Assembly (NCBI GenBank): GCA_025449115.1
Contig: JAHLKC010000114.1
Location: 1 to 64,000, forward strand
Reading direction: 5' to 3'
Source of the DNA: Chytridium lagenaria
Lineage: Eukaryota; Chytridiomycota; Chytridiomycetes; Chytridiales; Chytridiaceae
Length of the DNA: 64,000 nucleotides
The translations under genes were made by a program, and so were the position numbers. How positions within the stretch are numbered: the stretch's first letter is position 1; every line of letters begins with the position of its first letter. Of this stretch, positions 16,015 to 63,700 are shown in pieces. The notes under the pieces are model-generated. The model was not told the origin of the DNA, did not search any database, and saw only the letters and a program-made list of their open reading frames with translations.

Positions 16015-16400
16015 ATTTTTGGCACAATAAATAAACATACCGCCGCATACCGGCGTACACGGCGGCCAACGTCCAATATTTTTTGGCACAATAAATAAAC
16101 ATACCGCCGCATACCGGCGTACACGGCGGACAACGTCCAATGCTTTTTGGCACACTAAATGAACATACCGCCGCATACCGGCGTACACGGCGGACAACGT
16201 CCAATGTTTTTGGCAATATAAATAAACATACCGCCGCGTACCGGCGTACACGGCGTGGCACAATAAATAACATACCGCGGCGTACACGGCGGACAACGTC
16301 CAATATTTTTTGGCACAATAAATAAACATACCGCCGCATACCGGCGTACACGGCGGACAACGTCCAATGCTTTTTGGCACAATAAATAAACGCATAACAC
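16015..16400. repeat. 60-bp CpG-rich satellite, about six copies
   Basis: Units of about 60 bp: TTTTTTGGCACAATAAATAA then ACATACCGCCGCATACCGG, CGTACACGGCGGACAACG and TCCAATG. CCGCCG...CGGCGG forms an imperfect palindrome. One copy (16230-16290) is partly deleted. The array starts about 50 bp after the TET/JBP stop codon and passes into the 255-bp array. Confidence 0.9.
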
Positions 16401-24313: not shown

Positions 24314-25430
24314 CTAGGACTTGCCGAGAACGTTTTGGCGGCGAGTGGGAGCGGTCAATGAGTGTGCGGTAGGCCAGAATTTGTTCAACAACACGTTCAC
24401 CGATGGGTAAGGCGTCCAGAGGATGTGGGCCGTAATGGTCATAGAAGTACTGGCGGAGTTTTTCAGGATGAAATACCGGATGAACGTCCCAGCCAGCAGG
24501 GAGATCCAGCTGGTACGAGGTGCCAAGTTTTTCAAGGATTTTGTAGGGTCCGTGTAAGCAGGTCCGAGCTTGGAGGGTGGTTGTTCTGCAAGATTTGGGG
24601 GCCTGAAGTTCTTAGTGGACAGGAGGACAAGATCGCCAACCCGGAAAGGATCATCCAAGCGCCGTTTGTTGGCGTTGGCGGCTTGAGTGTCCTGTCTCTC
24701 CCGAACCATATTTTTGGCTTGAACGTATAAGTCCTTCCAGCCTCTGACGTCGTGATGATCTTGAAATCCGAGGCCAATGTCAAGAAGTCCAGTGGGATTT
24801 CGACCGTATCTAGCATGAAGGGCGTGTATCCGGTGGAGAGTTTACTGAGTCGTTGATGGCGTGCTCTACAATGTGAATTGCATCATCCCAGTTGTCTTGA
24901 TGGTGATTAGCGAAATATCGAAGAGCCTGAATGATCCACTGGTTCTTGTTTCAGTTTGACCGTCGGTTTGTGGATGGTAAGAAGTTGACAGATTATGTGT
25001 GATGCGGAGAGATTGATGAGAGCTTTCCAGAAACGATCAATGAAGCGCGAATCCCTGTCTGTGATGATTTTCTTAGGGAGTCCATGATAGCGCCATATGA
25101 CTTGTTCAAAGCTCTTGGCAACGTCTTCTGCCTTAAACGGGGCCTTAGTAGGGATTGCGTGGACTCTCTTGGTTGCTGAATCCACGATAACGAGGAGGTG
25201 GTCGTGCTTGCGCCGTGTCTTGGTAGCGAGACGAAATCCATGGAAATGGTATCCCACCGTTGAAGAGGAACCTCGTGTGGTTTGAGTAGCCCAAATGGTA
25301 GGTGCCTGCTGCCTTGAACCGCTGGCACGCGTCACAAGTCCGCACGTACCGAATGACATCTTTGTGAGTTGGCCAGTGGTAAAAGCACGAGATCTTTCAA
25401 CCGTCTTTCCCAGTTTTGTGTGAATGGTAG
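24314..25430 (-). pseudogene. Ty3/gypsy integrase
   Basis: Zinc-binding end VRTCDACQRFK (about 25340), core RWDTISMDFVSLPR (about 25260), HDHLLVIVDSATKRVHAIPT (about 25190), HGLPKKIITDRDSRFIDRFW (about 25060) giving the DDE-type D and D residues, and a C-terminal FRVGDLVLLSTKNF (about 24640). Frames alternate, showing indels. No chromodomain recognised. Confidence 0.8.
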
Positions 25431-25699
25431 GGACCGTCGTCGGAGCGCGTTGAATGACGGTCCGCGGATTGGAGTGGGGACGTAAAGACGGAAATGTCGA
25501 TCACTTCATAGTACAAAAGTCCACCTGAAAGTTGGTAACAATTGACCTTTTGTCGAAGTTCCTTTGTACCGGCGTGGATTGAAGTTTTCCTTGGGTTGAT
25601 GTTGTCGTCAAGATATTCTTCCAGGGTGTTGAAAAGTTCATCTCTACCAAGTTCCTCCTTGATGCGGTCCAACAGATCGTCGTCAATTTGTACAATGGC

Positions 25700-27198
25700 G
25701 TTAAGGTGAGTGAAGAAGTACTTGTGCCGACGTCTTTGGAGTGAGGCGTCTTGATAGAGCATCCGCAACCGTGTTCCAGTCACCAGGCATCCACTGAATT
25801 TCGAAGTCAAAGGAAAGAATGTCGGCGAGCCATCGATGATGAACCGGCGGAGTTTTGTTTGATCCAGAAGGTGTTGAAGAGAACGGTGATCGGTGAAGAC
25901 TTTGACTTCTCGACCAACAAGGTAGTGTCTATGAGTCTTGAGAGCTTCAACCAAGGCAAAGATTTCTCCCATATATGGATGGTACTTGCGTTGAACTTGT
26001 TGCACTTGCTGGATGCATAGGAACTGGGTGATCAATACCGTCGGCGCTGGTTGGGCAACGTAACTACCAATGGCTCTTTCAGACCAGTCAGTATACAAGT
26101 GTACTGGTTTATCGGGTCGAAAAGGTAAGTTCTGCAGGATTGGCGAGAGCTTTTTGATCTTGTAAAATGTTTCTTGGTTTTCTTGGGTCCACTTGAAAGG
26201 TGCGGGTTTCTTCTTGGTACAGATCCTTGAAGAAGATCCGAAAGAGGTGCCACAAGAGATGCATGCTTGGCAATGAAGCGATGAATGGTGTTTGCCAAGC
26301 CTAGGAAAGACCGAAGAGAGTCCAAGATGTTGGCGTTTCGAAATCCACAATGGCTTGAACCCGAGATGGGAGGACGCGGAGTCGATTTTCCGAGATGTGA
26401 AACCCAAGGTATTCAAGCTCCTTTTGAAAGAAGGCACATTTGCTGAGTCGTGCGTGCAGACCATGTTCTTGGAGTCGATGGAGCACGCGACGGAGGTGTT
26501 CTTCATGTTCCTGTTTGTACTTGAAAAGACCAGGATGTCGTCCATGTAAGCAATGAGAAAATCGTCGACGAAGTCCTTGAAGATTGAGTTCACCATTTGT
26601 TGAATGTTGCAGGCGCATTAGCGAGTCCGAAAGGCTGACAACCCATTTCAAAATGACCATACTTGGTGCGGAAAGCTGTCTTATGTCGATCTTGCTCAGC
26701 AATTCCGAATTTGGTGGTATCCTGACGCGAGATCCAGTTTCGAGAAGTACTTGGCGTTCTTTAGGCGGTCGAGATTTCCACAATGTTGGGGAGAGCCGTT
26801 CGGTTTTGATGGTATTCTGGTTGAGGAGTCGGTAGTCAATGGACCAGTCGCATTTTCCCAGCATGGTAGACGTAGAAACTGGGGCGCCATATCTGAGATG
26901 GATTCCTGAATCCGTCCTTCGAGACGTAGGAAGTCGAGTTCTTTTTTCATGCTTTGAAGTTCCGTTTCACTCATTGGGTAGATTGGCCGGTGAGAGGTTT
27001 TGCCGAAGGGTCTATTAGTTGATTCGATGATCCATTGACGAGCAGGTGGAGTACGGTGTAAGGAGTGAAGACTTTACCGAATTCTTCAACGAGTGCTTGA
27101 ACCTCTGGTGGAAGATTCTCCTTGATTTTGGCGTCAAGTTCGTTGGAGTCAACCGTAGTTTTAATCTGAACTTCTGTGTTTTTTGCAAGTGAGTTCAA
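25700..27198 (-). pseudogene. Ty3/gypsy reverse transcriptase and RNase H
   Basis: Visible blocks in order: LPPEVQALVEEFGKVFTP (27100), WSIDYRLLNQNTIKTERL (26845), [13 protein letters not shown] (26700), the catalytic YMDDILVFS (about 26545), FLGLANTIHRFIAKHASLVA (26290), the RNase H TDWSERAIGSYV (about 26070) and VFTDHRSLQHLL (about 25890). These are classic gypsy-type blocks. They fall in several frames, so the ORF is broken. Confidence 0.85.
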
Positions 27199-29629: not shown

Positions 29630-29699
29630 GCGTCGATAGTTAAGTGGTATAATAAGCGCCTTCCAAGCACTAGTGCGGGTTCGATTCCCGGTCGACGCA
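29630..29699 (+). tRNA. tRNA-Gly(TCC)
   Basis: Acceptor arms GCGTCGA/TCGACGC pair perfectly; D-arm with AGTGGTATAAT, anticodon loop CTTCCAA, and B box GGTTCGATTCC. A run of six T at 29701 ends transcription. It stands just upstream of the Ty3 element's 5' side. Confidence 0.93.
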
Positions 29700-33160: not shown

Positions 33161-33231
33161 TGCATTGGCCGGGAATCGAACCCGGGGCTAACCGATGGCA
33201 ACGGTTAATTTTACCACTAAACCACCAATGC
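33161..33231 (-). tRNA. tRNA-Gly(GCC)
   Basis: Acceptor GCATTGG/CCAATGC, anticodon loop TTGCCAT, B box GGTTCGATTCC. Last gene of the nine-tRNA array in transcription order; followed directly by T6 on the minus strand, the only strong Pol III terminator of the array. Confidence 0.93.
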
Positions 33232-33241
33232 GTGATGAACT

Positions 33242-33315
33242 TGCCTTTAACCAGAGTTGAACTGGTGACCTCCTGCTTACTAGGCAGACGCTCTAACCAA
33301 CTGAGCTATAAAGGC
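33242..33315 (-). tRNA. tRNA-Thr(AGT)
   Basis: Acceptor GCCTTTA/TAAAGGC, A box TAGCTCAGTTGG, anticodon loop CTAGTAA, B box AGTTCAACTCT. 10 bp from tRNA-Gly with no terminator between. Confidence 0.92.
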
Positions 33316-33323
33316 AGTAAAAG

Positions 33324-33396
33324 TGGAGAATCGGGGTATCGATCCCCGTGCCTCTCGCATGCTAAGCGAGCGCTCTACCATTTGAGCTAATTCCCC
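33324..33396 (-). tRNA. tRNA-Ala(AGC)
   Basis: Acceptor GGGGAAT/ATTCTCC, A box TAGCTCAAATGG, anticodon loop TTAGCAT, B box GGATCGATACC. An 8-bp gap containing T4 separates it from tRNA-Thr. Confidence 0.92.
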
Positions 33397-33405
33397 AATT
33401 TAAGC

Positions 33406-33493
33406 TCCCAGTCCGGGAATTGAACCCGGGTCTCGCCCGATCGGTGCAGTTATGCATGACAGGGGCGGATACTAGCCACTATACTAACTGGGA
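33406..33493 (-). tRNA. tRNA-Asp(GTC) with an intron of about 17 nt
   Basis: Acceptor TCCCAGT/ACTGGGA, A box TAGTATAGTGGCTAG, anticodon stem CGCCC/GGGCG. Between the stems are 24 nt instead of 7: CTGTCAT plus an insert of about 17 nt at the canonical position after the anticodon. B box GGTTCAATTCC. Confidence 0.9.
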
Positions 33494-33504
33494 TGGAGAT
33501 GAAA

Positions 33505-33577
33505 CGCCCAACGTGGGGGTCGAACCCACAACCTTCAGATTAAGAGTCTGACGCTCTACCGATTGAGCTAGCCGGGC
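33505..33577 (-). tRNA. tRNA-Lys(CTT)
   Basis: Acceptor GCCCGGC/GTTGGGC, A box TAGCTCAATCGG, anticodon loop CTCTTAA, B box GGTTCGACCCC. 11 bp from tRNA-Asp. Confidence 0.93.
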
Positions 33578-33590
33578 TGTTGAGGAGAAA

Positions 33591-33664
33591 TGCTCCGCAC
33601 AGGGATCGAACCTGTGACCTTGGCGTTATTAGCACCACGCTCTAACCAACTGAGCTAGCGGAGC
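33591..33664 (-). tRNA. tRNA-Ile(AAT)
   Basis: Acceptor GCTCCGC/GCGGAGC, A box TAGCTCAGTTGG, anticodon loop CTAATAA, B box GGTTCGATCCC. 13 bp from tRNA-Lys. Confidence 0.93.
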
Positions 33665-33682
33665 ATAGACATTTAAGGGGAA

Positions 33683-33756
33683 TGGTTGCGTCCAGGATCG
33701 AACTGGAGACCTTCTGTGTGTTAGACAGATGTGATAACCGACTACACCACGCGACC
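33683..33756 (-). tRNA. tRNA-Val(AAC)
   Basis: Acceptor GGTCGCG/CGCAACC with one mismatch or wobble, A box TGGTGTAGTCGG, anticodon loop CTAACAC, B box AGTTCGATCCT. 18 bp from tRNA-Ile. Confidence 0.92.
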
Positions 33757-33776
33757 AATTTAGAGTATGAACTCCT

Positions 33777-33850
33777 CGCTCCTGCGTGGACTCGAACCAC
33801 GAACCTTGACGTTAACAGCGTCACGCGCTAACCAGTTGCGCCACAGAAGC
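33777..33850 (-). tRNA. tRNA-Asn(GTT)
   Basis: Acceptor GCTTCTG/CAGGAGC, A box TGGCGCAACTGG, anticodon loop CTGTTAA, B box GGTTCGAGTCC. 20 bp from tRNA-Val. Confidence 0.92.
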
Positions 33851-33858
33851 TGGAGAAT

Positions 33859-33931
33859 TGCCGCCTCTCGGGATCGAACCGAGTACCTTAGCATCTTCAG
33901 TGCTACGCTCTCCCAGGTGAGCTAAGGCGGC
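33859..33931 (-). tRNA. tRNA-Phe(GAA)
   Basis: Acceptor GCCGCCT/AGGCGGC, A box TAGCTCACCTGG, anticodon loop CTGAAGA, B box GGTTCGATCCC. First gene of the array in transcription order; upstream lies a run of nine A on the plus strand. Confidence 0.93.
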
Positions 33932-34292: not shown

Positions 34293-36225
34293 TTATATCC
34301 AAATATTCCTCCCCTCTTTATAACATTCATTCCCATTCTCCAAAATTCCCGGCATGGCCATGATAACTGCACCACTCAACGAAGAAGCCATCAACATCAT
34401 TTGAAAATAAACCAACCACGAAACCTCCGTCGTCTGAAACTCCTCTATGGCATCCCTCAACGTTGCTTTGGAAACTCTATGTTCCACCACTAACCCAACA
34501 GCATCCATCGTCAAACTGAATAGGATCATGATGCACCCACGGACAAAATGTGTACTCGCAGGTAGCGGGCCTAGACATTGCGTCCAAGTGTATTGAGGTG
34601 GCGTGGAGGTGAGGAGGAGGGTGATGAGAAAGGCAGAGATGCGACCGCACCATTCTGCAAACATGGATGTGAGATTGGTGAAGGCAAAGCGAATATCATC
34701 GGACATCGGAGTGAAATGTAGATTAGGTGGCGACACGTCGATTTTAGGGACGTTAACAAATATCGATCCGCTACCCGTCGAATCGCGATGAGGTTCCTTA
34801 GGTACCGTAGAAATACTTTGATGATCGCCATATCCGGGAAGAACTACCTCCTCCTTCAAATTTTCCAAATACGTCCTCTCAACGCTGAGTTGACGAGGAT
34901 CTCGTTCAAACTGCGACACGCGTTTTTTCTGAAACTGATTGTAAGCGTCACTGAGGACCGGCGCTGTCTTTCCCTTCTTCTCCATCTGCAACCGTCGGAA
35001 CGCCGCAGCCGAAATGATTCGTGTCATCAGTACAACAATATGCGAGCAAACGACGGAAATAGAAAACGTGGTGTTATCACGGATTTCTGCAAGTAGGAGC
35101 CTGGTGAGAGTGTTCCAGTATATCTCTTGGCTAAAGAGAATCGTGAGTACGATATAGAGCAAAAATTATTTACCTGGCGATGAAACGAAACTGCATGTAA
35201 GTATAAATGAAAGTGCCATCAACGGTAATAAAATGATGAATTGTAAAAGTAAAAAGTACATACTGTGGTTTTTTTCGACTCTACCTCTTCTGCGGAGTTT
35301 GTGGGCTCTTTAACATCAAATACAGTCAACCCTCGGCGATTCAATAGCATGGAAAGGGACTTCATTATTGGGAAACTAACTTTAAATGTTACTATGGCTA
35401 TTAGACAGAAAAGGTATTATGATAAAAGGCGCAGGTAATCCGGCATACATACCCTATACCAAACATGCATGCTGATCTAATCATTCCAATTGCAGTATTT
35501 TCTCCAGTATTTGCCATCCGAGAGAGGGATAGAGTGATCAAGATGACGGATCTGGAAGTCGAATATCAAGTTGAAAACAAGGCATACGGAACGCGACAGA
35601 GAATCCTCCCACTTACATGTTGTAAGCCATGACGATCCAAAATACGAGATACTGAACAATGCACGTTTGAATTCTCTTGCTGAGGGTTTGAGCCTCATCC
35701 CAGAGAACAAAAGGACCCAAAATAACTGGTAGCAAGGAGACTGGTACAAAGACCTTATAGGATATCTCCACAAACGACATTCTCGTCAACGACCATACTA
35801 CCGGCCCGATTGCGAGAAATGGGATAGCGAACAGCAAGTAGTCGAGAACTGGGTGAATGAGCACCCTTTTGTTTGAATATGAACTGATAACTCCGATTCT
35901 AGAGAAAAAAACGTCAGTGGTTTCGTTTAGAAGGAGGATAGAACACTGACGCCGTCATAAAGTAAAGGAAAAATCCAAACACTTTAGTATCATCAGCGTA
36001 TGGCGTTCCGTTGTCTGATGCCACAGATCTACTTAAAGAATATTTGGAAGCCAAAAGAGCGATAGCGATCATAATGCTATAAGTTGACAGTGGTCGTAGC
36101 ATTACAGTCAAAGACTTCATATCTCCGATGGCCTTCGTTATCCATAGCGAAGACGGTGGGGAATCGTTCCCCATGTAAAGCGAATGAGGTAAGAGACCAA
36201 CCGATTTACATATCTGTATCAACAC
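34293..36225 (-). CDS. Multi-pass membrane protein, family copy A
   Basis: Exons on the minus strand: 5' exon with MKSLTVMLRPLSTYSIMIAI (about 36110), one with PVVWSLTRMSFVEISYKVFV (about 35790), short exons near 35500 and 35350, and a large 3' exon from 35162 with LLLAEIRDNTTFSISVVCSH. A cytosolic loop of about 90 residues follows (QMEKKGKTAPVLSDAYNQF), then FTNLTSMFAEWCGRISAFLI, and a C-terminal MAMPGILENGNECYKEGR. At least six hydrophobic helices. The same exon order and motifs recur in copies B (46.0-47.8 kb) and C (48.4-50.5 kb). No transporter or GPCR signature is visible; function unknown. The first exon and start are not fixed. Confidence 0.6.
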
Positions 36226-40916: not shown

Positions 40917-41961
40917 GTATATGCAATTCGTGATAATGTATATACCGGCTTCTAGAAAGATAACGAAAGAGGAGGGATTCGCAGCGATACTTCGTTTATA
41001 GGTAAGCATTTTGCGACGTGTTATACATCAACAAATTAAAAAGATATAGCGATGATCAGTAGTAACCATGATCATGCTTTCTCCAGAATAAATGCGTATG
41101 CAGTTAAGCACGGTTCACCTATTTCAGTTTCAGGGACATGTTGACGAGTCAACGGGATTGACCATTTTTAATGGAAGTGTGATCATAAACGTTGTTTTTA
41201 TTTGCGTATGTTGATGGATGATGGCAGGTTTGCGAATGAGAGCTAAATCGATGGTTGCGGCGTAATTCATCGTCTAACTTACCTTAATATATACGCCAGC
41301 CTAATGAAGGGGCAACGCTTTTAGCGATCATGTAGGGATGGAGAAAGTGAGAACGGTGTTATCGACTCGCTTAGTGAATGGTTCAAGCCGTACGTTGAAA
41401 AACGTGACCAAAGCGATGATCAAAGGAATGAACGATTCAGGGAAGGAGTGGTAGAGGGATAAGTGATTATGGGGTAGCGCCACCAAAAGGTACGTTGTGG
41501 TCGAACGGCAGGGTAATGACGGGACCTTTCACGATCTTACGAGCATCATCATCTGATCATCGTAGAGAGAGCAATGGACAATCGAGTTCGTTGATGCCCT
41601 ACAGCTGTCAATGCGGTGAGTGGATTACTACTGGAAGTAAGGGTTTTGAGAGCTCCAGGATCGGTTGATCAGCTAGCCTTCCTCGTGATCTCTCCACGTT
41701 CACAATCACATTTGACGATGATCCATCTCATTTGATCATACTCTCCTGCACACTTCTATTACGTCTCCATCAATCCCAACCACACACTCCCTCAGCCCTG
41801 ACGGCTAGACGACCAACCTCCCTCACAACTCGTTGACACCGCCGTCATTCCACTCCAAAAATAGGTTATTAGGCATTGGGTGTGGCGTAGAATATTCCTA
41901 TTGGTTGAGACGTTCTGTGTCACTCTTATTTTGGCTCTTTCCTGATTCTTTAATCTTTCCC

Positions 41962-41969
41962 TATAAATA
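41962..41969 (+). promoter_or_regulatory. TATA box of the hairpin-array transcript
   Basis: TATAAATA stands 83 bp before the first hairpin, followed by a CT-rich stretch suitable for a start site. Together with AATAAA at 42925 it frames a unit of about 0.95 kb without a protein frame. Confidence 0.5.
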
Positions 41970-42051
41970 AGGGCCACTTCTTCAGACCTTTCCTCCATCC
42001 CTCCTTCATATATACCATCCTCGCATTCTTCGTCTCTCCCTCATCGCTTCC

Positions 42052-42880
42052 CCTATGAGGTCAATACAAATCCTAGCCACGCACACTTAACTGGGAAGTG
42101 CCGTCGCTGGATATGTTATTGATCCTCAGAGGTCTCTGCGTCAATGATCACCTCTTCCCCTCACTCTTACTGCTCCCTTTTTTCCTATGAGGTCAATACA
42201 ATCCTAGTCATCCTCTCACTTTGTTTTCGTTCGGAGAGGATCACTGGATCTGGATTGATCCTCAGAGGAAAAGGGCTGTATCCTCTTGATCATAATCCTA
42301 TCCCACCTATGAGGTCAATACAAATCCTAGCCATCTCCTTCAGAATTGTGAAAGGAGATCGCTGGATCTGGATTGATCTTCAGAGATGGGAGGACATACT
42401 ATCCTTTTCTATATATCAATGAGGACTCCCTCCTATGAGGTCAATACAAATCCTAGCCATGATCTCGTTTTGTTTTTTGGAGACCATCGCTGGATATGTA
42501 GTGATCCTCAGAGGTACGGGTTTCTTCACTTCCCTTTTTTCTCTTTGAGATTGTTGACCCTATGAGGTCAATACAAATCCTAGTCAGACGGTCTCTTTGT
42601 TTTGGACCATGTCTCACTGGAATTGCATTGATCCTCAGAGGGACCTTTATCTTTTTCGGTCGTTGCTTTAGGCCTCTTTTCTATGAGGTCAATACAAATC
42701 CTAGCCAAGCCCTTTATATGTTGAAAGTGCTTCACTGGACTTGTACTGATCCTCAGAGACGGTTATGCCTTTTTGTTTGTTATTTATAGTGTTTTAACCT
42801 ATGAGGTCAATACAAATCCTAGCCAGGGCGTCGTCTTTTACTTTTGACGCCCTCGCTGGAGCTGTATTGATCCTCAGAGG
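42052..42880 (+). ncRNA. Array of seven structured hairpins, candidate small-RNA precursor cluster
   Basis: Units at 42052-42132, 42184-42268, 42306-42386, 42432-42514, 42559-42641, 42681-42759 and 42798-42880. Each 5' arm reads CCTATGAGGTCAATACAAAT then CCTAGCCA; each 3' arm reads like GCTGGATCTGGATTGATCC then TCAGAGG, and the two pair over about 20 bp with a few bulges. Above that, each unit has its own 6-9 bp stem: ATCCTCTC/GAGAGGAT, ATCTCCTT/AAGGAGAT, AGGGCGTC/GACGCCCT and so on, closed by T-rich loops of 9-16 nt. Units with TAGCCA have TCGCTGG opposite; units 2 and 5 with TAGTCA have TCACTGG, a C-G to T-A compensatory change. No open frame explains this. It resembles clustered pre-miRNA/milRNA, but size class and processing are unknown. 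Confidence 0.75.
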
Positions 42881-42924
42881 TGCATCGACGCTGACTAAGT
42901 GTTTATTCTCACGATTATAATCTA

Positions 42925-42930
42925 AATAAA
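42925..42930 (+). terminator. AATAAA polyadenylation signal after the hairpin array
   Basis: AATAAA 45 bp after the seventh hairpin. Suggests the array is made as one Pol II, polyadenylated transcript. Confidence 0.45.
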
Positions 42931-43259
42931 CCTATACTTCAAATTCATATTTATTGTTTATGTTCTTTCAATGCTAGGTATTATGACACAATGACGGGTC
43001 CATAAATATTTACACTGCGTGAACACAGATCTCACTTACACGCCTCGCCACATATACAGCACTTCAGGGGGCGTGTTAAATTATGCTGTGACCACCACTT
43101 TAACAATACTCCCGTCCATTAATCAAATCCCTAACCATTTTAACACTATCCATCCGAATTTTCCCAACAACCTCCCCAATGGTATCCACACTCTCCCCAA
43201 TCTTCACCACCACATCCAAATTCTGCCACAACACATGCTCCTGCGCATTAGCAGTACCC

Positions 43260-45197
43260 TCAAAGAGCCACAGTGTATGGCGAATCGCTCAACAGCGCTA
43301 AAAAATACGACGGATCATGCAGGACCCTCATGGCGGGTGTGATGGGTCTTTTCATGGTAAGCCAAGTAAGGGAGTACCCTAACGCTGTGACTGTGAAAAG
43401 AAGCTGTGTGATCCCACAGATGAGGACACTGTAGCTTGCCCAGGTTTGGAAAAAGACAAAAGACGAGTTGGGCGCGTTAATTTTGCGAGGACATGAGGAA
43501 CCGCGTTGACGGAATGTTCTTTGGAATGCGGCCCGGAGAAGGATGGCTATGTGGGTTTCCACGCCGGTGTTGAAGAGAGCGGGGTCGATGGAGATGAGGT
43601 TTGAGCTTGACCAGTACATGAGGGTACTCATCATGCCGGGGGTTGTTGAGGGGATGTTGTAAAGTTGACCTTGTGTTGATACGGCCTTGATAGCTTGTGC
43701 AATGGATGAGATGTTGGCGGTTTGAACTTTATCGATGGATATCAGATCGGAATGAACCAATGCGATAGAGGCTGTTGTACCGTCTGTGAGAAACGTAGCC
43801 ATGATTTGGGAGTTTTGGAATTGGGAGATGGTTGTAGTGCAGACTGACATGAATTCTGAGGAATAGCCACCGCAGGTAGAGAGTTTGCCGTAAATGGTGG
43901 TCAAATTGAGTTCACCGCGTGTCGTTTGATTCATGACGCGTCCAACCATTGCAAAAGGAAAATCACGCTCAATGATACCATTTAGCAAGGTTCGCTGATC
44001 TTCAGGAGTAAGCAGACCCGCTTCAACGACAGCTGCGTCGGACACGTTGTAGCAATCACAGTGCGTGTTGATGAATGCAGTGTAGCCAGGTCCGACAATA
44101 GTGTCTCCGTCTTTAATAGCGCCAACGAGTTGAGGTCCAAATGCAAACTGCGACCCTTGATCTGTGCAAAGACTTTGAGATCTCATGCAACCCAAAGCAT
44201 CTCCAAATATGAACTCCGCGACACCCAGAGATGTCTCAATGGATGGGTAAAGACGATCTCGAACTTGAGACGAGTCCAAGAGTATACACGGGACCATATT
44301 CGCGATTTCACGTACGCTCTCCACGGAAACACCGGAGGCACCGAAAGGACTAAGTATCATCATGCCTTCCAGAATGATCCAGATCAAAGACATGCGGGAG
44401 AGAAGCATTCGACAGGGTGAATTGAGAGAGAGTTGGTTTGAGAAGGCGAATCGCGACAAGGGTTTTTTATGCATAAACCCGCATGAGGCCATACTGTAGC
44501 CTTTTGACGTGAGTTTATCAGCTAGAAAAATCGTGGCAGCCATGTCTGCTACGTGAATCGTCACCATGTTCATGACGATGAGAATGACTTGGAGCGATAT
44601 TGGACCAATGCTTTGAACAAGACTTTTTGACAATGATACATTCGCCCCCTTCTTCATGGCGAATGCCAACCATATCAATAAACTGTTCATAAAGGTCGCT
44701 AGCATGATGATGAGAAGCTACTTGATCTTTGTCCCGGTCGTCTCACTTAATTCACGAGAGTGTGGAAACTTGTTCCTCCCAAGAGTTCCAGTGGAACGAG
44801 AATGGAGGGAGCCTATACTTTGCTCTTTATCTTTAGGTGATTTGATTCCTTGAATAGAACTCCGCACGGATTGATATCGAAGAGCATCTGTAGACTCTAG
44901 ATTCCGTCGGCTGGGCCGGTAAGAAGTATTCACCTGGCTTCTTTGCCCTCCATCGCTGGCACTGCTCCCATTCTCCCGAAAGCTGTCATCATCATAAAAA
45001 TCGTCGTATTCCTCTCCCTCCAAGTCGCTCTTCTTTGACATCATGACGCTGGATTTTGACCACTTGATGTGATTGTCGGAATGGGAAGGGGCGTCTAATC
45101 TTGCTAGGATCGTGGGCTTCGTTATAACCTTCTCCATCTCGAGCTCGCGACTGAATGTTATTTTCTGGAACGTTGCGTCAGCATCGCATAACCTCAA
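43260..45197 (-). pseudogene. Polytopic membrane protein with large extracellular loop; in-frame TAG
   Basis: A 159-residue charged, Ser-rich N-terminal part (MSKKSDLEGEEYDDFYDDDS) ends at TAG 44718-44720; the same frame continues at once as LLIIMLATFMNSLLIWLAFA, the first membrane helix. After helices containing ISLQVILIVMNMVTIHVADM and MSLIWIILEGMMIL comes a loop of about 270 residues with paired cysteines (DALGCMRSQSLCTDQ, INTHCDCYNV, GKLSTCGGYS), then a final helix (WASYSVLICGITQLLFTVTA). Near 43270 the frame ends in TGA, but another frame carries on with LWLFEGTANAQEHVLWQNLD to about 43090, which suggests a second break. Two breaks suggest a decaying gene, unless read-through or consensus errors explain them. 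Neighbour of the membrane family, but not obviously of it. No known family. Confidence 0.55.
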
Positions 45198-45199
45198 TT

Positions 45200-45940
45200 A
45201 TTGTGCAGAGGAAGTGTTAAGTGTTGGGAACTCACGGGACATGATCCTCCTGGGTTGCCCTCACGTTCTACCGAGAGTCCTTTTTCGATGCTACACTTCT
45301 CATCAGGCATGGATACTCAGAGAATAGAAAACGTCAATTGCGCATCACTTCCCTATGGGTAACCTTGCTAATCCGCCTTACATATGCAACCGTAGATCTT
45401 CGGTTTTTTTAAAAAAGGTTTGTTGACTCATCTCTCGGGTGAATACTCCAATATTTCCTTGCGGCGGGATGCAAGTCGTTATGACCCGGATTTGAAAATA
45501 CAAGGTAAAATACAAGGTTTTCGTGTGTGAATATCTTTGGAGTCTGGGCCTCTTGAAATGCTAAGAGAAGCATCCTCCATTCATTTCGTCAAACGTCTCC
45601 ATACAGTTTTGAATAACAACTTTCCGTCCGACAACGACACTCGGAAGAAGTACTCGACGTTTAGCCAGCGGAGACTCGTCGTTTTTAAAGGATAGTGGTA
45701 TGAAATAGAGCCGGCGGCGGAGGATTAACGAACAAGTGTTTCGGTGTTCTTGGGTCAAGAGCTAGACTAGATATCTTGGCCATCTTTTCGGTGGAAGTAA
45801 TAACTCCTTAGACAATTAAAAACAACTGAGCCATCACAATCGCCCTCGTTATAGAGTCATCTGCGATTCATAAATTCTATATTAAACATATTATCTCATT
45901 TTTCTAAAGCATATAATCTTACGGGGTTTATATACATACT
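45200..45940. other. Intergenic stretch, one weak frame
   Basis: A minus-strand frame at 45561-45758 (MTQEHRNTCSLILRRRLYFI) could be an exon of the gene to its left, but no splice partner is clear. Otherwise nothing recognised. Confidence 0.25.
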
Positions 45941-46002: not shown

Positions 46003-47832
46003 TCACACCCAAACACTTCGTCCGGCTTTAAAGCAATCATTTCCATTCTCCAAAATTCCCGGCATAGTCATCACAAAAACCCCACTCAATGCACAAGCCA
46101 TCATCGCCATATGCAAATAAACCAACCAAGATATCTTAGTCTTTCTAAACTCCTCCACAGCCTCCTTCAACCCCGATTCAGCAACCCTATGTTCCACTAG
46201 TACGCCAATAGAGTCCATAAAAAGGCTCAATAAAATCATGATGCTGCCGCGGACAATGTGTGTTTGCACGGTGAGTGGATCCCGACATCTAGTCCAGGTG
46301 TATTGCGGAGGTGTAGAAGTGAGCAGAAGCGTAATAAGAAATGCGGATATTCGGCCGCACCACTCTGCAAAGATGGAGGCGAGGTTGGTAAATGCGAAAC
46401 GGGTTTCTTCAGAAATTGGTGTGTGAAACTAGACAAAGGTTCTTTTGGCGAAACATCCACAAGAACTGAAGTTGAGTCGCTCTCTTCAACCACCGGTGAC
46501 AGTGGCTCTTCAATCTTTGTAGTAACATTTTTTGAAAGGTCATACTCTGGAAGGCTCTCTTCGTCCGAAACTTTCAAACTTTTTACCACACTTGCTTTCC
46601 GGGTGGATCCGCCCTTGATGGTGACACGTCTTTGAATTTCATTATAGGCTTCGCTCAATATCGGCGCTGTCTTTCCCTTCCGTTCCATCTGCAGACGCTT
46701 GAACGTAGCGGCAGATACAAATCGGGTCACCAACGTCACCATGTGAGAGCATATAACGGAAATAGAGAAGGTCGTGTTATCGCGTATCTCGGCGAGAAGG
46801 AGTTTGCTCAATGTGTTCCAGAATATGTCTTGACTAGAAAAAAACTTTGATGAGAACAAAATATGGCTTCATCATTTACCTTACGATAAATCTGAACTAA
46901 AAAGATTGAATTAATATTCTCCTAATTTGAAAGTAATACGCATCAACTTACGATGGTGCCTTTCGAAACATTTTCTTCTTGCATATTCGTTGGTTCTTTA
47001 AACTGATACACTTTTATACCTCGGCGAGTCGCTTGCATCGAAAGGTATCTTAGAATTGGGAAACTGAATTTGAAGTTAGTTTTTTGTAAATACCGGAAAC
47101 CAGTAATAATATAATTTTAAAAGAATACCACGCACGCAACACCAAAGAGACAGACTGATTTCACCATGTCGATAGCAGTTACTGCCCCACGGCTTGTGAT
47201 CTGAGAAAGTGATAGAAAGATGAGACTGACCAGCCTGAAGGATAATTTAGAATAAACATCGACGTATTCAAAGAACATACAGGTTATAAATGACTACCAG
47301 CCAGTAAACCACTATTGCATAAGGCAAAGGTGAAGAAGCTTGGCGATGCTCAGCTTATCGTCCCAGAAAATAAGTGGACTTAACAAGCCGGGCATGATCG
47401 ATGCCGCGAGAAACAGCTTATAAGTCGCCTCAACAAATGACATCTTTGTTAGCGACCAAACTATAGGTCCAGACGCAGCGATAGGCGAAACAAGCATTAA
47501 GTAGTCTATCACTGTGTTGAACCAGAATGACTTCTTTGAATACAGACTGACGATCACAGTCCTAGTATGCAGAGATTAGAACATAAAAAAGGAGAACAAC
47601 TTACCTCGGTGTCAAAAAAGAAATACCCCGAAAGCTTTAGTGTCGTCGCATACGGTATCCCCTCCGTCTGATCAATAACAACATTTCCGAGAGTGTACTT
47701 GATAGCCAGAAGAGATACCGTCGAAATAATGGCGTAGGTAAAGACCGGTTGTATCATCACAGTCAGACACCTCGCCTCGCTGATAGCCCGACGTATCCAT
47801 GTCAACGACGATTCTTCACCCTCAGCTCTCAT
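46003..47832 (-). CDS. Multi-pass membrane protein, family copy B (one frame break)
   Basis: Same architecture as copy A. Exons: SEARCLTVMIQPVFTYAIIS (about 47780), GPIVWSLTKMSFVEATYKLF (about 47440), short exons near 47180 and 47030, and a large exon from 46859 with LLLAEIRDNTTFSISVICSH and QMERKGKTAPILSEAYNEI. The C-terminal half (HTPISEETRFAFTNLASIFA, then EWCGRISAFLITLLL, MTMPGILENGNDCFKAGR) lies one base out of frame from the preceding loop; the break is near AGTTTC at about 46425. Copies A and C are continuous here, so this copy has a one-base indel (real or consensus). About 55-60% of aligned residues appear shared with copy A by eye. Function unknown. Confidence 0.55.
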
Positions 47833-48412: not shown

Positions 48413-50545
48413 TCACGACCGCGCCTTTCGTCCTTCCTTGAAGCACGCATTCCCGTTTTCCAATATTCCAGGCATGGCCATGATAAACATGCCGCAAAGC
48501 GAACATGTCATCAAAGCCATTTGCAGGTATACGAATCCCGATAACTGAATCTTCTTTAACTCCTTTACTGCTTCACTCAACTTCGCCCCGGCTACTCCAC
48601 TGTCAATCATAAAGCCCGCGGCGTCTGCAAAAATGCTTCCAAAGAAAACAATGATGACACGGATGAGGTGTGTCTCCACGCTGATTTGGTCTCGGCATCG
48701 GGTCCAAGTAAGTTGAGGCTCGGTAGAGGTGAAAAGTAGAGTGAGCATAAAAGCCGATCCACGACCGCACCACTCAGCATAAAAAGAAGCCAAGTTTGAA
48801 AAGGCGAACGCGGTTTCTTTAGACATCGGTACAAATACGGCTGTAGATGAGCTAGCTCCGGACTGACTTAGGAGCTGCTCTACTATGATTGTAGAATCAT
48901 GTTTCTTCTCGCTTTCTATTGTACGCTCTACGAAGGATAACGTCAATATGGTCCTATTCGAAAGAGCCGAACTATCATCCATTGGCTTAAACCGCGGAAG
49001 ATCGTTTTCGTTTCTATCAGGCTTTGCTTTTGCATCAAACGATATTCCACTTTCTTCCTCAGCATTCCTTGTTATCGAGATAGCGTCCTTCGAACAACCC
49101 ACTGGAAAGTCTTCTGGTGCTGAAGCCGTCTGAAGCCTTTTTCGTAGTTGCATATTCTTAAAGCTGGCAGCAGATAGGAATCGAGTCGAAAGGGCAACAA
49201 TATGAGCGCAGACGACACAGATAGAAAATGTCGCGTTATCCCGAACTTCGGCGACGAGGAGCTTGCTTAGAGTGTTCCAGAATATCTCCTGGCTAAGTCA
49301 ATAAAATCGTTGTTAGGATATTGTATCTTAACCACGATTTTTCACCTAGCAATAAATGTAAACTATCAAAATAAGTCAGTAAACCTGAAGAAATTATGCT
49401 TAAAAAAACTTTACAGTAAGAGAAAGGTAGGAGTTTTTAGAAAATGGATCAGTTACAATTATCTTCTTCACGTTGTTTTCCTCCTCAGCATTCGCAGGCT
49501 CTGTTACTTGATACATTTTCAGCCCCCGTCGTGATGCCTGCAGAGAGAAATATCTCAAAATTGGGAAGCTATTGTGTTTGCAAAAAAAAGTTTTAGTGGG
49601 AGGCAAGAGAAACGCCCATATCAATAAAGCTTCGCCTACCCTATTCCAAATCCGAAAACAGTCTTTCCCATACCCTTTAAAGACCTTAGCCCCTGCGTTT
49701 CGGTGGCTGATCTAGACAGTTCAAGGAAAACGAGACCAGCAAACCTGAAATTAGGTTGAGTAATTACGTTCATATACACATCAAAAAAAAAAAAAAAAAA
49801 AACATAAAAGAGAATTATTTACATGTTTAAAACAAAAACCATCCATATCGCGGCATATTGAGAAACCCAGAGCTTCAATCTCGCAAAAAGCCTGTCGCCT
49901 TCAATCCAATAAATAAACGGTGATCCGCAAATGGGTAATATGCTGGCTCCAAGAAAAAGGCAATATGTAGCTTTTACGAACGAGATGGTGCTAAATATCC
50001 AGACCAAAGGTCCAAGCATTATAATTGGGCCGAGCACTAGTAAATGATCCACGTGAGGGTTAAACCAGAACTTCTTTTTCGCATAAAGGTTTGCAATTAA
50101 GTTCCTTTATTAATAAATGATAAGATTGAGACCTTGGCAGAACAACTATGCAGTAAAATATAAAGAGGGTTCAGACGTACCTTGGACACAATGTCAAAAA
50201 GAAGCCGAAAGCTTTAAGTTCGTCAGAGTATGGCATTCCATCATTGCGATCAAGCACTGTGGCGCTCAAGGTGAACTTAATAGCCAAAAGTAATGCACAC
50301 GATAAAAACGTATACATGAACGTAGGGCCTGCCAACACCGCTAGACTTTGTATGTCCTTCAACTCTTTTCTGGCGACTCCGAACATCAGTGCTCGACTCC
50401 GGAGCTCCTCCTTCATTAAAATAAAAACGTCGAAAGAAAAAAAAAATCTACCGAGTTGATCGTGGAATGAGGAAACCGGCTTCACGAACACCACTTGATG
50501 ATAATCTAGGTAGCGGGTTATTTGATTTACAGTTACGGAAATCAC
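48413..50545 (-). CDS. Multi-pass membrane protein, family copy C
   Basis: Third tandem member. Exons: KELKDIQSLAVLAGPTFMYT (about 50350), GPLVWIFSTISFVKATYCLF (about 49990), short exons near 49700 and 49540 (NFPILRYFSLQASRRGLKMY), then from about 49300 LLVAEVRDNATFSICVVCAH and a loop longer than in A and B. The conserved FAFSNLASFYAEWCGRGSAF, TSTEPQLTWTRCRD and MAMPGILENGNACFKEGR end at 48413. All family motifs are kept, with more divergence than between A and B, so it is the oldest split. A 19-A run sits in an intron near 49783. Confidence 0.6.
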
Positions 50546-52821: not shown

Positions 52822-53920
52822 ATGCTGCAGCAAGTCGACTCTGTCCAATCCCCCATCGTCACCCTCTTCGTCTCCAGCGAGGGTGTCTCCTCTGAACGTC
52901 GTTTCAATAGAGACATCACCATCGCAACACTCAAGGTACACCCTTCACCGTTCCATACCTTCCCAACACATATATAGGAACGTCTCTCCCCTATCACTGG
53001 TGTCCCCCCTTCGACCATGAAGATATCCGTATACGGTCGAACGGCAGGGAGTACCAAGGAATCCATGATATGTCAACTTGCCGATGATGAAAAGATGTTG
53101 GGTTTTATCCGTTGGAGGATTTTATGGCGTTGCAGGTGACGGATTCGAATCCGACGAGAGTGAAGGGAGCGTTTACGGATACGAGTCTTGTGGAGAAGTA
53201 TGAGATGCCGGATGACGAGTATGCAAAGAGGCAAGGTGAGAAGTCTGGTTTTTAGTCGTTTATTCTTTGTAAAGGGCTACCAGGTTTTATGGTTTCTTTT
53301 AAACGACCGTTTCTTAACCTTCATTTACCGTTTATTCATCATATTAACCGTTTCTTACCTTTCATTTTACCGTTTATTCATCGCCCCTGTAACCATTTCA
53401 ATTCTTCATCCTTCATTTCCCTGTTTTCTTTCAAAAAAAGACTCTGTCCTCGCCTACAAGATGCGCCACAAAATCGGTCGATTCGACGACTCCAAGTCAA
53501 TGGACAGCACGCGATCCGACGATTTCAAAACCGAAGCATCACGCATCAAACCCGGAGATCGATGTAAAGTCTCTCCCGCCTCTGACGAAGACGGTTTTTC
53601 GAAAATCGGAACCGTCAAGTTTGTAGGGTTGACGAAATTCAAGCCTGGATGGTGGATTGGGGTTGAGTATGATGAGCCTGTCGGAAAACATGATGGAACG
53701 TGAGTTGACCGGTTTTTTTCTTGTTTTTTTCAATTTGAGTAGTTGTTTGTTGGCTTTTTTCAGCGTTGCTGTTTTATCGAGATTGATTTTTTTTGGTAGG
53801 GTTTCTGGAACACCTTATTTCACATGTCGACCCAAACACGGCGTCATGGTTCGTCCAAATCGTGTGGAAGTGGGAGAATTCGAGGAAGAAGATCTCTTTG
53901 GCGATGATGATGAGATATAA
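52822..53920 (+). CDS. Tubulin-folding cofactor B (CAP-Gly protein)
   Basis: Exons 52822-52935, 52978-53235, 53441-53699 and 53800-53920, about 250 residues, the family's usual size. N-terminal ubiquitin-like domain (SPIVTLFVSSEGVSSERRFN, DITIATLK), linker with TSLVEKYEMPDDEYAKRQ, coiled segment SVLAYKMRHKIGRFDD, then the CAP-Gly domain: GDRCKV, GTVKFVGLTKFKPGWWIGVE, YDEPVGKHDGT, and the final exon RPKHGVMVRPNRVEVGEF. It ends EEEDLFGDDDEI, like the acidic tubulin-tail mimic of the family. The protein helps fold and release alpha-tubulin in the cytosol. In exon 2 a T must be added to GGTTTTATCC (53101) to read GFYPLEDFMALQVTDSNP, so there is a one-base break there. The last exon is repeated five more times downstream. 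Confidence 0.85.
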
Positions 53921-55128
53921 TCCAAACAAGTTATTTAATCCAATAGATAATGTATGTTAGAACGTGAGTTGACGATTTTCCTTGTTTTGTGAACGTGCGC
54001 CAACGTGATTGTTTCAAACGTTGCGTTTTTATTACTGTTGGAGTAGGGTTTCTGGAACACCTTATTTCACATGTCGACCCAAACACGGCGTCATGGTTCG
54101 TCCAAATCGTGTGGAAGTGGGAGAATTCGAGGAAGAAGATCTCTTTGGCGATGATGATGAGATATAATCCAAACAAGTTTTTTAATCCAATAGATAATGT
54201 ATGTTAGAACGTGAGTTGACGATTTTCCTTGTTTTGTGAACGTGCGCCAACGTGATTGTTTCAAACGTTGCGTTTTTATTACTGTTGGAGTAGGGTTTCT
54301 GGAACACCTTACTTTACATGTCGACCCAAACACGGCGTCATGGTCCGTCCAAATCGTGTGGAAGTGGGAGAATTCGAGGAAGAAGATCTCTTTGGCGATG
54401 ATGATGAGATATAATCCAAACAAGTTATTTAATCCAATAGATAATGTATGTTTGAACGTGAGTTGACGTTTTTCCTTGTTTTGTCAACGTTCTTCAACGT
54501 GATTGTTTCAAACGTTGCGTTTTATTATTGTTGGGGTAGGGTTTCTAGAACACCTTGCTTTACATGTCGACCCAAACACGGCGTCACGGTCCGTCCAAAT
54601 CGTGTGGAAGTGGGAGAATTCGAGGAAGAAGATCTCTTTGGCGATGATGATGAGATATAATCCAAACAAGTTATTTAGTCCAATAGATAATGTTGTTAGA
54701 ACGTCGTTTTTCCTTGTTTTGTCAACGTGCGCCAACGTGGTTTCAAACTGCGTTTTTATTATTGTTAGGGTAGGGTTTCTAGAACACCTTGCTTTACATG
54801 TCGACCCAAACACGGCGTCACGGTCCGTCCAAATCGTGTGGAAGTGGGAGAATTCGAGGAAGAAGATCTCTTTGGCGATGATGATGAGATATAATCCAAA
54901 CAAGTTATTTAGTCCAATAGATAATGTTGTTAGAACGTCGTTTTTCCTTGTTTTGTCAACGTGCGCCAACGTGGTTTCAAACTGCGTTTTTATTATTGTT
55001 AGGGTAGGGTTTCTAGAACACCTTACTTTACGTGTCGACCCAAACACGGCGTCATGGTCCGTCCAAATCGTGTGGAAGTGGGAGAATTCGAGGAAGAAGA
55101 TCTCTTTGGCGATGATGATGAGATATAA
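53921..55128 (+). repeat. Five extra tandem copies of the cofactor B intron plus terminal exon
   Basis: Copies of the 121-nt terminal exon, each with a TAG acceptor and TAA stop, lie at 54047-54167, 54294-54414, 54540-54660, 54774-54894 and 55008-55128. Periods are 247, 247, 246, 234 and 234 bp. Each unit carries the tail of the preceding exon and the donor (GAACGTGAGTTGAC) in units 2-4; the last two have lost the GTGAGT donor (GAACGTCG). Exon sequences are nearly identical and stay open, so any copy could serve as last exon. Confidence 0.9.
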
Positions 55129-55460
55129 CGAAAAAGGTTGTTTAATCCAATAGATGATGTGTAGTTTAGCCCTTTTTGATTCAGTTTCACGAAAAGTGGG
55201 GACGTACACCTGCGAAATTGGTGAAAGGGATGGTGATTTTGGGAGCATGATTTATTAAGTCAAGGAATCATTGTTTGACTTCTTTATGGCACTAAAACAA
55301 TGTTCAATCCAACGTGTAAGGCGGTAACCCCCCAAACAAAGAGCATCAAAATGCATGATAAACAACAAAACTATCAATCCACGTCCCTATAACCCTCCAC
55401 TCGACCTCTCCACAACATTCCCTAACGCTCTCACACCCAAACCAATATCAATCCACGTCC

Positions 55461-60782: not shown

Positions 60783-63700
60783 ATGTTTAATCACGACCCT
60801 GAAGAACCACTCCTCCGCATTGGATTCCAGAACATTAGAGGCCTTTCGGGGCGCGCTGATGATCTGTCGGACACCTGCAAACAACTAAAAATTGATATAC
60901 TAACCACTGTAGAAAACCTGGCTCCTCCCAACACAAACCCCACCGCTATCCAACGTCATCGCCAACTCAACACACACTCCTCCACCCAACTTCCATCATG
61001 GTCGCCTCGCCCAGAAGGGCGTCCTTACCGTCAACTCATCTCCACGACCACTCGCAACCCAAGTTCTTGCCTCACCTGACGGCGGCCAATGGACCGCCGT
61101 CAAAGTCGGCAACCTCATCCTCATCACTGCCTACCTCCCTCCACTCATCACAACCCCTCACATCATCCCCCTCCTCCTCACCTCCTCACCCAATTCCGTG
61201 ACACCATCCTGGCCCAGCACCCCGACGCTCCCTGCATCATAATAGGAGACTTTAACACCCGCATGGGACTATACACCAACGATCATCAAATGTGCCCTCA
61301 TCAACACCGACGTCAATGGATGATGGACTGGTTTGACGACCCGGATTGGAACTGGATAGCTCCCACAACAGGACGCTGGACTACCTTCTCCCAGAATGGG
61401 AAAAGTATTACGGATTATGTATTCGCAAACGCCGCTGCCCTCACCCTACTCCCTGTCCTTACTATACATGAACATCTAACGCATGGCAGCGACCACTGTT
61501 TTATTTCTCTCTCCATTTCCCAACCAGGTAACGTCCATAAGCCGCCGTTCCAACGCATCAACATTAAGAAACTTCGACAAATCCCAGAAGACTTCAACAC
61601 CGCCCTCACCCAACTCCTCCTCCCCATCATACCCCAACTAACCGATACCTTAAACACCATCCACATCCAACGCCAACAGCAGACCCTCCTCCCCATCGCC
61701 ACCCGCCAAACCGTTGTAGACCACGCCAACACCCTCATCACCGACGCCATCACGGAAGCTGCCGTAGCCACAGGAGGCATCTTCAAGTACTCAGGAACTT
61801 ACGCCCCCAAAGCCTTCCAAACAGATTTTCTCTCCGACCTACGCCAAAAAGCCCTCGAAGCCCACCTCGCCTGGCTCCATGCATCACCCGCCGACCGCCA
61901 ATACTGTTGGCTCCGCTGTACCTCCGCCAACCGCTTATACCGTACCGCGGCGCGCAGACGAGGCCTCAAACACTTCCGACTTCGCGTAGACGACCTCGCA
62001 CGAGACCACACCACCGCCATCAAAGTCATCTCCTGCAAGAAGGCCAGAACAGAAAGAACCTCCTGCGCCCTTGACCCCAACAAGCTAGAAGACTACACCA
62101 ACTATTTCTCGACTACCTTTGGCGCACCACCATCAGGCACGGAACCTCCCGACAACGAATACCTCCACCTCACCGATCCACAACGTCCCCGCCCCCAGCC
62201 GCTCTCCCCCCTGGATATCTCCCGACATCACTAAAACCGCACTCACCCACTCCCCATCCGGAAAAGCTGCCGGAGGCGACGGCGTCTACGGTGAAATGCT
62301 ATCCATTGCCGCCACCACCCTCACCCCAGCCATTACCCTCCTCTTTCAAATCATCGCCTCCTATCTATGCATTCCCTCCCCATGGCAACACGCAAATGTC
62401 GCTCTCATCTATAAAGGCAAGGGCCCGAATACTAATGTTGCCAATTATCGCCCCATCTCCCTCATGTCCATGCTCAGGAAGACCTTCGAAGCCATCATCC
62501 GACCTCCCCTCGACAAACGTATCGTCCCCACTCTTGATAAAGCCCAAGGGGGTTTCCGCGCCGGCCGATCTAGTCTCGAACAAGTCATGGTCTTGAACGA
62601 AGCCATCGCCACAAAACCAGATCTTACCTGCGTCTACCTCGACATTAAGGCCGCATATGACACGGTGGACCGCCGTATACTTTGGTCCCGTTTTTCTTTA
62701 CTCCTTGGAACTGTTTTAGAAAAAGATGAAACTGACTCTACTCTTGTACCCCTCCTCAGAGCCCTTTTTGACTTCAATCTAGCCTTTCTCCTGGTCCTCG
62801 GGCACAAGTCGTTACCAATACCGGTGTTGAGGGGTCTTATTCAAGGTACTCTAGCTGCGCCGGTTCTTTTTAATTTTTTTATCAACCCCCTCCCATCCCG
62901 ACTCCGCACTCTCCCCATAAATATCTTCCCCTTCACACCCACATCCGTACTATTAAATAACTCCCGTTTAAACTCCCTCCTCTTTGCTGATGATATTGTT
63001 CTCTTCCACGTATTACTCCCCATCCTCCAAATCCTTCTTAATGAATGTTATGAATGGGCACAGTCGGTGGGAATCTGCTTTAACGCGACGAAGACCATTT
63101 CAGTCGCGACGAGACTTATAGCACCTCCCCTTCGTCTTGGACCGGACCCCATCACACAGAAGGAACTAGCACGTTATCTAGGGATGATGATGGGAGGGCG
63201 CGGGGCCGACGTAGTCGCCTCGCTCCTCCCACGCATTGGGGCAGCTCGACGAATGGTAGGATGGCTGGGAGCTATTGGGATGAACAGTATGGGATGGCGC
63301 CCTCAGATGTCAATCCGGATTTATAAGACTCTTATCAGACCCATGATGAATATGGCCTCGCCCTTACGCCTCTGCCAAAAACAACACACCGACCAACTGC
63401 AACGCGTACAAAACGCTGCTCTCAGATGTCTCTTTGGTGTCTCCTCTAAAACCAGCATCCCCGCCCTACATCTCCTCTCCAACCTTCCCACCATGGGCCT
63501 CCCGTAACCACACCCTCAATGCCTCCTTCTATTTTCGATTACACCAATCCAACGATATCACCCATCTGGCCGTGACCTCCTATCGCGGCCGCACCATCCT
63601 CCCCGACCTACATCAATCCTTCATCTCTCAATCCAGCCGAAAAAACCCACTCTGGCCCCTCCTTACACCCTCACTCACCCCATTCAACCAAAACCCGCTT

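Follow-up and report, generated by a model that had tools for sequence, protein, structure and literature searches.

A candidate microRNA-like gene with seven paralogous hairpins in the chytrid Chytridium lagenaria

The hairpin array and its surroundings

The Chytridium lagenaria genome assembly comprises 41.9 Mb in 356 contigs. The stretch analyzed here (the window) is 64 kb of contig C114, and it carries seven hairpin units of 79 to 85 nt each at 42053 to 42880 on the plus strand. The units start 118 to 132 nt apart, and the spacers separating the hairpins are 38 to 52 nt long. An initial annotation had claimed seven units of about 80 nt; when their coordinates were checked, all seven were found on the plus strand, and the TATA motif at 41962 (TATAAATA) and the AATAAA motif at 42925 lay where that annotation had described them. 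The features of the locus are as follows.

41962..41969, plus strand: putative Pol II promoter, TATA box (CTATAAATA from 41961), ~90 nt before hairpin 1
41990..42050, plus strand: pyrimidine-rich leader (82% C+T), presumed transcript start region, with the start site inferred
42053..42132, plus strand: hairpin 1; 5′ arm 42053-42079, 3′ arm 42104-42132, carrying a 1-nt insertion
42185..42268, plus strand: hairpin 2; 5′ arm 42185-42210 (one A lost, assembly error), 3′ arm 42241-42268; T-A in place of C-G
42307..42386, plus strand: hairpin 3; 5′ arm 42307-42333, 3′ arm 42359-42386
42433..42514, plus strand: hairpin 4; 5′ arm 42433-42459, 3′ arm 42487-42514
42560..42641, plus strand: hairpin 5; 5′ arm 42560-42586, 3′ arm 42614-42641; T-A in place of C-G
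42681..42759, plus strand: hairpin 6; 5′ arm 42681-42707, 3′ arm 42732-42759; C opposite A, read as G-U on the minus strand
42799..42880, plus strand: hairpin 7, the most stable of the seven; 5′ arm 42799-42825, 3′ arm 42853-42880
42925..42930, plus strand: putative polyadenylation signal for the hairpin transcript, the sole plus-strand AATAAA in 42881-43250
42950..42955, minus strand: AATAAA, putative polyadenylation signal for the convergent neighbor; a second one at 42907-42902
43103..45310, minus strand: convergent neighbor BC829DRAFT_492793, multi-pass membrane-like protein (tblastn blocks 45310-45236, 45164-43326, and 43258-43103)

The array is also present on contig C219. Alignment of C219 with C114 covered 9,968 bases without a single mismatch, and most of its 77 gap bases were C219 deletions. 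Because the two contigs differ by indels and by no substitutions, a second, independent cluster was rejected, and C219 was treated as a redundant contig of the C114 locus. Unit 2 in C114 lacks one A of the 5′ arm (ACAATCC) that is present in C219 unit 2, while C219 unit 3 lacks the 5′-arm A that C219 unit 2 has. Since this indel affects different units in the two contigs, both cases were taken as assembly errors and the 5′ arm as equal in length in all seven units. Unit 2 was entered with the missing A restored in all tests of pairing and conservation.

The TATAAATA motif at 41962 is the sole plus-strand TATAWAW in 41700 to 42050; the plus strand of the 64 kb holds 33 TATAWAW and 69 AATAAA motifs in total. 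Across the whole window, 0.11% of 61-nt stretches are as pyrimidine-rich as the leader, and 0.16% are as purine-rich. The right-hand gene is convergent with the array, ends with a stop at 43103, and has its own AATAAA motifs at 42955-42950 and 42907-42902 on the minus strand. Its protein matches BC829DRAFT_492793 of Chytridium lagenaria with 100% identity along 95% of the query, and it has 27 homologues among the best 8,000 candidates scored, from chytrids wherever the organism was named; the chytrids with related proteins include Phlyctochytrium, Dinochytrium, Siphonaria, Chytriomyces, Rhizoclosmatium, and Obelidium. The flanking plus-strand TATA and AATAAA motifs, the convergent gene with its own AATAAA, and the pyrimidine-rich leader point to a plus-strand Pol II unit of ~950 nt, and the array is probably read from that strand. 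No open frame was found across the array. Each of the six frames contained 9 to 21 stops (9 to 17 in the three plus-strand frames with the missing base restored), and a coding array was rejected on account of stops in every frame. The 5′ arms of units 1 to 4 and 7 (5 of 7) share one reading frame, which is interrupted by stops.

Other parts of the window hold features of their own. Eight tRNA genes (Gly, Thr, Ala, Lys, Ile, Val, Asn, and Phe) lie within 771 bases at 33161-33931 on the minus strand, a packing that looks tight for a nuclear genome, and there is a lone tRNA-Gly at 29630. Three groups of tandem paralogous membrane-like open reading frames (ORFs), 42 to 66% identical, are found around the array at 34293-35165, 46003-46868, and 48413-49297 (minus strand). 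Four of the membrane-like ORFs were searched against Pfam and had no match at an E value of 0.001. The convergent neighbor (43103-45310) was considered as a paralogue of these tandem ORFs and rejected, as no relation was seen at an E value of 1e-3. Long tandem arrays occur at 1634-2679, 5527-6277, 13316-14589, 16391-18631, and 53795-55160 (periods of 91/182, 117, 302, 255, and 247, respectively), two of which are open as ORFs on both strands. Further ORFs encode a KDZ-transposase-associated CxC4 domain (8640-9623, plus strand) and a TET/JBP oxygenase domain (15437-15964, plus strand). Two retroelement ORFs were also identified, one with reverse-transcriptase RNase H domains (25397-26617, minus strand) and one with an RVT_1 domain (62089-63507, plus strand); the ORFs adjoining them look like further pieces.

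Folding, arm conservation, and covariation

Each unit was folded separately, and every unit formed one hairpin of 28 to 30 bp, in agreement with the imperfect stems of about 30 bp first described. The z scores of the unit folds ranged from -4.2 to -7.9 against 500 dinucleotide shuffles per unit; for six units none of the 500 shuffles reached the stability of the real unit, and for unit 5 one did. As a background, we collected all hairpins of 22 bp or more across the window, 222 on the plus strand and 214 on the minus strand. On the plus strand, 6 of the 7 units folded at -31.7 kcal/mol or lower (unit 6 folded at -26.5 kcal/mol), compared to 6 of 215 other hairpins; on the minus strand, all 7 units were at -36.7 kcal/mol or lower, compared to 3 of 207 others. 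In a 23-nt duplex core, a length assumed for this analysis, 18 to 20 of the 23 bases were paired, with 2 or 3 asymmetric interruptions, in all seven units and on both strands. The rules set out by Axtell and Meyers in 2018 reportedly place the product in one arm and allow at most 5 mismatches and at most 3 asymmetric bulges in the duplex. All seven units conform to the structural rules for miRNAs (hairpin, mismatches, and asymmetric bulges).

The two arms are conserved to different degrees, as the initial annotation had noted in describing a near-invariant 5′ arm and a looser 3′ arm. Variable columns numbered 1 of 27 in the 5′ arm and 7 of 28 in the 3′ arm (with the unit 1 insertion set aside), a contrast that is marginal when judged by variable columns alone (Fisher P = 0.051); the seven units had a mean pairwise identity of 0.98 in the 5′ arm and of 0.85 in the 3′ arm. 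The inner stem-loops (identity of 0.55, versus 0.53 for shuffled sequences) and the spacers (0.54 versus 0.53) were at the shuffled level. Since loops and spacers have reached this level while the arms are alike, the copies are old, with the arms alone held. The seven paralogous units thus combine a constrained duplex with a free loop and free flanks, as expected of a miRNA gene. The 5′ arm includes TGAGGT (42056-42061 in unit 1), and each of the other six units has it at the corresponding position. Animal let-7 begins with these six bases, a likeness that we take to be a coincidence.

The upper stems differ between units and pair within each, and the inner stems originally quoted for individual units proved correct. 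A strictly ungapped reading of the inner stem from two fixed anchors had 43 of 56 cells paired. Swapping the 3′ halves among units gave a mean of 28.1 paired cells, and 2 of 5,040 permutations (the true one counted) reached 43; energy versions of this permutation test gave 4 and 12 of 5,040. Sliding the ungapped register by 1 to 3 positions left 24 to 32 paired cells. We also examined a 31-pair structure, in which 89.9% of 217 cells paired, compared to 82.5% in shuffles that ignore the kinship of the units (0 of 500) and 35 to 43% in slid registers, which keep that kinship but favor a structure derived from the same sequences. Relative to the same shuffles, the number of cells changed on both sides was raised (18 versus 6.7; 0 of 500), as was the number of pairs with two-sided change (8 versus 5.1; 9 of 500), while one of five measures, the number of further pair types, was not unusual (14 versus 12.1; 129 of 500). 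RNAalifold, run on a MAFFT alignment, returned 25 pairs, of which 5 had changed on both sides, and its covariation term was small (-0.77).

The compensated C-G to T-A change reported for the common stem was confirmed, with T-A in units 2 and 5 and C-G in four units; so was the exception, unit 6, where C faces A. The T-A change common to units 2 and 5 may be a single event. Pairing within units exceeded that in the swapped, shuffled, and slid controls, which upholds the argument of the initial annotation that covariation means selection on the fold. At the level of sequence comparison, these data show that the hairpin fold is or was under selection and that the fixed 5′ arm is under selection as well.

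Genomic distribution, RNA interference domains, and target scans

A dispersed inverted-repeat transposon had been named at the outset as an identity that would overturn the small-RNA reading. The array was found only on C114 and the redundant C219, with no further copy in the 41.9 Mb; units 2 and 6 were themselves absent from the results of the DNA search, for which unit 7 served as the query, and a strongly diverged copy could escape such a search. A covariance-model search (E value of up to 1, default filters) of the window and the C219 copy sequence returned 28 matches, all of them accounted for by the seven units and the C219 copies of these when both strands are counted. Sites related to GATGTCAATGCAAATCATAG (3 mismatches) on C34 and C186 were rejected as array copies: the C34 site has no 3′ arm and folds weakly (100 nt, -10.3 kcal/mol). 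The C34 and C186 regions are diverged near-copies, 90 to 97% identical in three blocks. Exact 20-mer scans gave 0 matches in bacterial and archaeal genome contigs; an exact 20-mer did occur in two viral contigs, in one stretch with the rest of the unit absent, and was taken as chance.

No Rfam family reached its gathering threshold over the array, which supports its standing as a new candidate and places it outside the known Rfam miRNA families at that threshold. At an E value of up to 10, the region had 9 Rfam matches, all below threshold; the best had an E value of 0.026 and 23.5 bits against a cutoff of 93. With no other copy found, stops in every frame, and no Rfam match at the gathering score, the array does not look like a transposon, a coding sequence, or a structural RNA, as is demanded of a miRNA gene.

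RNase III domains were located on C45, C2, and C143, and Pfam domains in the ORFs of the C45 and C2 regions identified these two as Dicer loci. The Dicer locus on C2 contains helicase C, Dicer dimerization, PAZ, and RNase III domains, and that on C45 contains Dicer dimerization and RNase III domains with a second, subthreshold RNase III stretch. PAZ and Piwi domains occur together on five contigs (C347, C12, C225, C18, and C47). Among the Piwi pieces, 6 of 17 read through stops (C18, 2 of 6; C12, 1 of 3; C225, 1 of 3; C47, 2 of 3; C347, 0 of 2), and these stops may be introns or damage. Matches to RNA-dependent RNA polymerase (RdRP) lie on C15, C37, C158, C102, and C145. Some of these contigs are possibly redundant, and so the tallies are not gene counts. 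By these matches, domains of Dicer, Argonaute, and RdRP are all present in the genome.

Potential target sites were sought with two 20-nt guide windows. With up to 3 mismatches, the complement of TATGAGGTCAATACAAATCC had 2 sites in the genome, compared to 3 for a reversed control, and the complement of GAGGTCAATACAAATCCTAG had 0. When the window was scanned for target duplexes, no site was better than those obtained with four shuffled guides. As neither guide window had complementary sites above the control, plant-like targeting is not supported.

Proposed function and alternative explanations

We propose that the array is a noncoding Pol II gene with seven pre-miRNA-like hairpins that yield one common 5p small RNA, a reading that we consider probable from its sequence features. 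A plus-strand Pol II transcript of ~950 nt would carry all seven hairpins, which would be cut out by an RNase III enzyme, the two Dicers being the likeliest candidates. Every 5′ arm would give the same 21- to 23-nt RNA, lying within UAUGAGGUCAAUACAAAUCCUAG, and this RNA would act as the guide of an Argonaute on any target it may have. With seven copies, each transcript would supply a multiplied dose of one guide. The 3′ arm would be the passenger, and the inner stems would be a scaffold that, as such, is free to change while still pairing. The pattern seen in the arms and the duplex is the one expected if selection acts on the guide, if the passenger tolerates change, and if the inner stem is a scaffold. 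The more specific proposal, that this is an old polycistronic chytrid microRNA gene in which an identical guide strand is maintained in all seven precursors, seems to us evenly balanced between right and wrong. The pre-miRNA-like cluster of the initial annotation is upheld in part: structure, a single locus, the lack of an Rfam family, and RNA interference domains speak for it, while the small RNA itself stands as a prediction. We regard the array as a candidate miRNA-like hairpin gene and not as a proven microRNA.

The main rival, which we judge unlikely but ahead of the other alternatives, is that the array specifies a long noncoding RNA (lncRNA) in which the seven hairpins are tandem sites for a double-stranded-RNA- or stem-loop-binding protein that recognizes the fixed arm. 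Tandem stem-loop lncRNAs exist, among them the Xist A-repeats and the roX stem-loops. The array resembles these in its regular stem-loops with linkers and in a fold more conserved than linker sequence, and a protein-binding RNA would fit the regular arrangement in a single transcript-like unit with 38- to 52-nt spacers, the retention of a fold whose inner stem sequence is free, and the outcome of the target scans, since it needs no target. For such a site, however, a fixed loop, a fixed bulge, or conservation of both strands would be expected, whereas the conserved part here is one whole 27-nt strand of an imperfect helix and the loops are free, unlike in the Xist A-repeats and roX. The Dicer and Argonaute domains in the genome likewise argue against it.

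Somewhat less probable still is that the functional RNA comes from the minus strand, as read-through 3′ sequence of BC829DRAFT_492793 or as a separate transcript, with the product from the 3′ arm (UAGGAUUUGUAUUGACCUCAUA...). The minus-strand fold is more stable than the plus-strand fold in 7 of 7 units (by 0.3 to 11.5 kcal/mol) because A-C oppositions turn into G-U, and the plus-strand C-A and A-C oppositions that become G-U on the minus strand include that of unit 6. There is also a TATAAATA motif on the minus strand at 42781, though it falls within the array itself, in the spacer that separates units 6 and 7. By a hand count, ~5 of the one-sided common-stem changes that pair on one strand only fit the minus strand and 1 fits the plus strand, a difference that is not significant given 15 positions open to the former and 9 to the latter. 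Against a minus-strand RNA, TATA and AATAAA flank the array on the plus strand and have no minus-strand counterparts in the regions scanned (TATAWAW in 42882 to 43250 and AATAAA in 41500 to 42050); moreover, both AATAAA motifs of the neighboring gene come before the array, and the pyrimidine-rich leader is on the plus strand.

Inverted repeats acting at the DNA level, as protein-binding or cruciform sites, are very improbable. Hairpin covariation alone cannot separate RNA from single-stranded DNA, but the symmetry is imperfect, with shared bulges and with one arm fixed and the other loose, where a dimeric DNA site would be expected to hold both halves alike, and TATA and AATAAA flank the array. 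Least probable of all is a transposon or miniature inverted-repeat transposable element (MITE) array or a recent functionless tandem duplication: the hairpins are repeated in tandem, in a window that has several tandem arrays and retroelement ORFs, but no copy was found elsewhere in the 41.9 Mb, recent duplicates would have spacers and loops that are alike instead of saturated, and neutral decay would not keep the inner stems paired within units.

The proposed miRNA-like gene can be compared with several known systems. Fungal miRNA-like RNAs (milRNAs) were reportedly described in Neurospora by Lee et al. in 2010. The array shares with fungal milRNAs an intergenic hairpin, Dicer and Argonaute genes, and a constrained region of duplex size; it differs from them in having seven hairpins with a common arm in one unit and in its sequence-based covariation evidence. 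Animal miR-430 and plant miR395 are polycistronic clusters that encode the same product repeatedly, a layout that multiplies dose. Like them, the array has several tandem hairpins with one mature sequence (here predicted), diverged loops, and a presumed multiplication of dose; unlike them, it matches no Rfam family at threshold. Animal pri-miRNAs have a lower stem of roughly 11 bp, which the array lacks, its conserved duplex lying almost at the hairpin base.

Fungal milRNAs were reassessed in 41 species by Johnson et al. 2022 (PMC9757828); in the parts of that paper considered here, the species are nearly all Ascomycetes and Basidiomycetes, with Glomeromycota and Microsporidia also represented, and the words "chytrid," "cluster," "polycistron," and "tandem" each have 0 occurrences in the main text. 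In the parts considered of a paper on plant-type miRNA maturation proteins (PMC7154892), chytrids are named for the protein TGH alone. We found no chytrid microRNA locus in the literature covered, which consisted mostly of titles and abstracts together with portions of PMC12663654, PMC13136243, PMC7154892, and PMC9757828; in the same literature, no same-guide polycistronic layout was found in print for fungi.

The array offers another kind of evidence for a microRNA-like gene, in that paralogous hairpins have kept a strand and a fold while drift has saturated their loops and spacers. If the more specific proposal of an old polycistronic microRNA gene is true, microRNAs that are encoded by genes and kept by selection would be present at, or close to, the base of the fungal tree. 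Should the predicted small RNAs be found, chytrids would gain a selected microRNA-like gene, and the age or convergence of fungal microRNAs would become directly testable.
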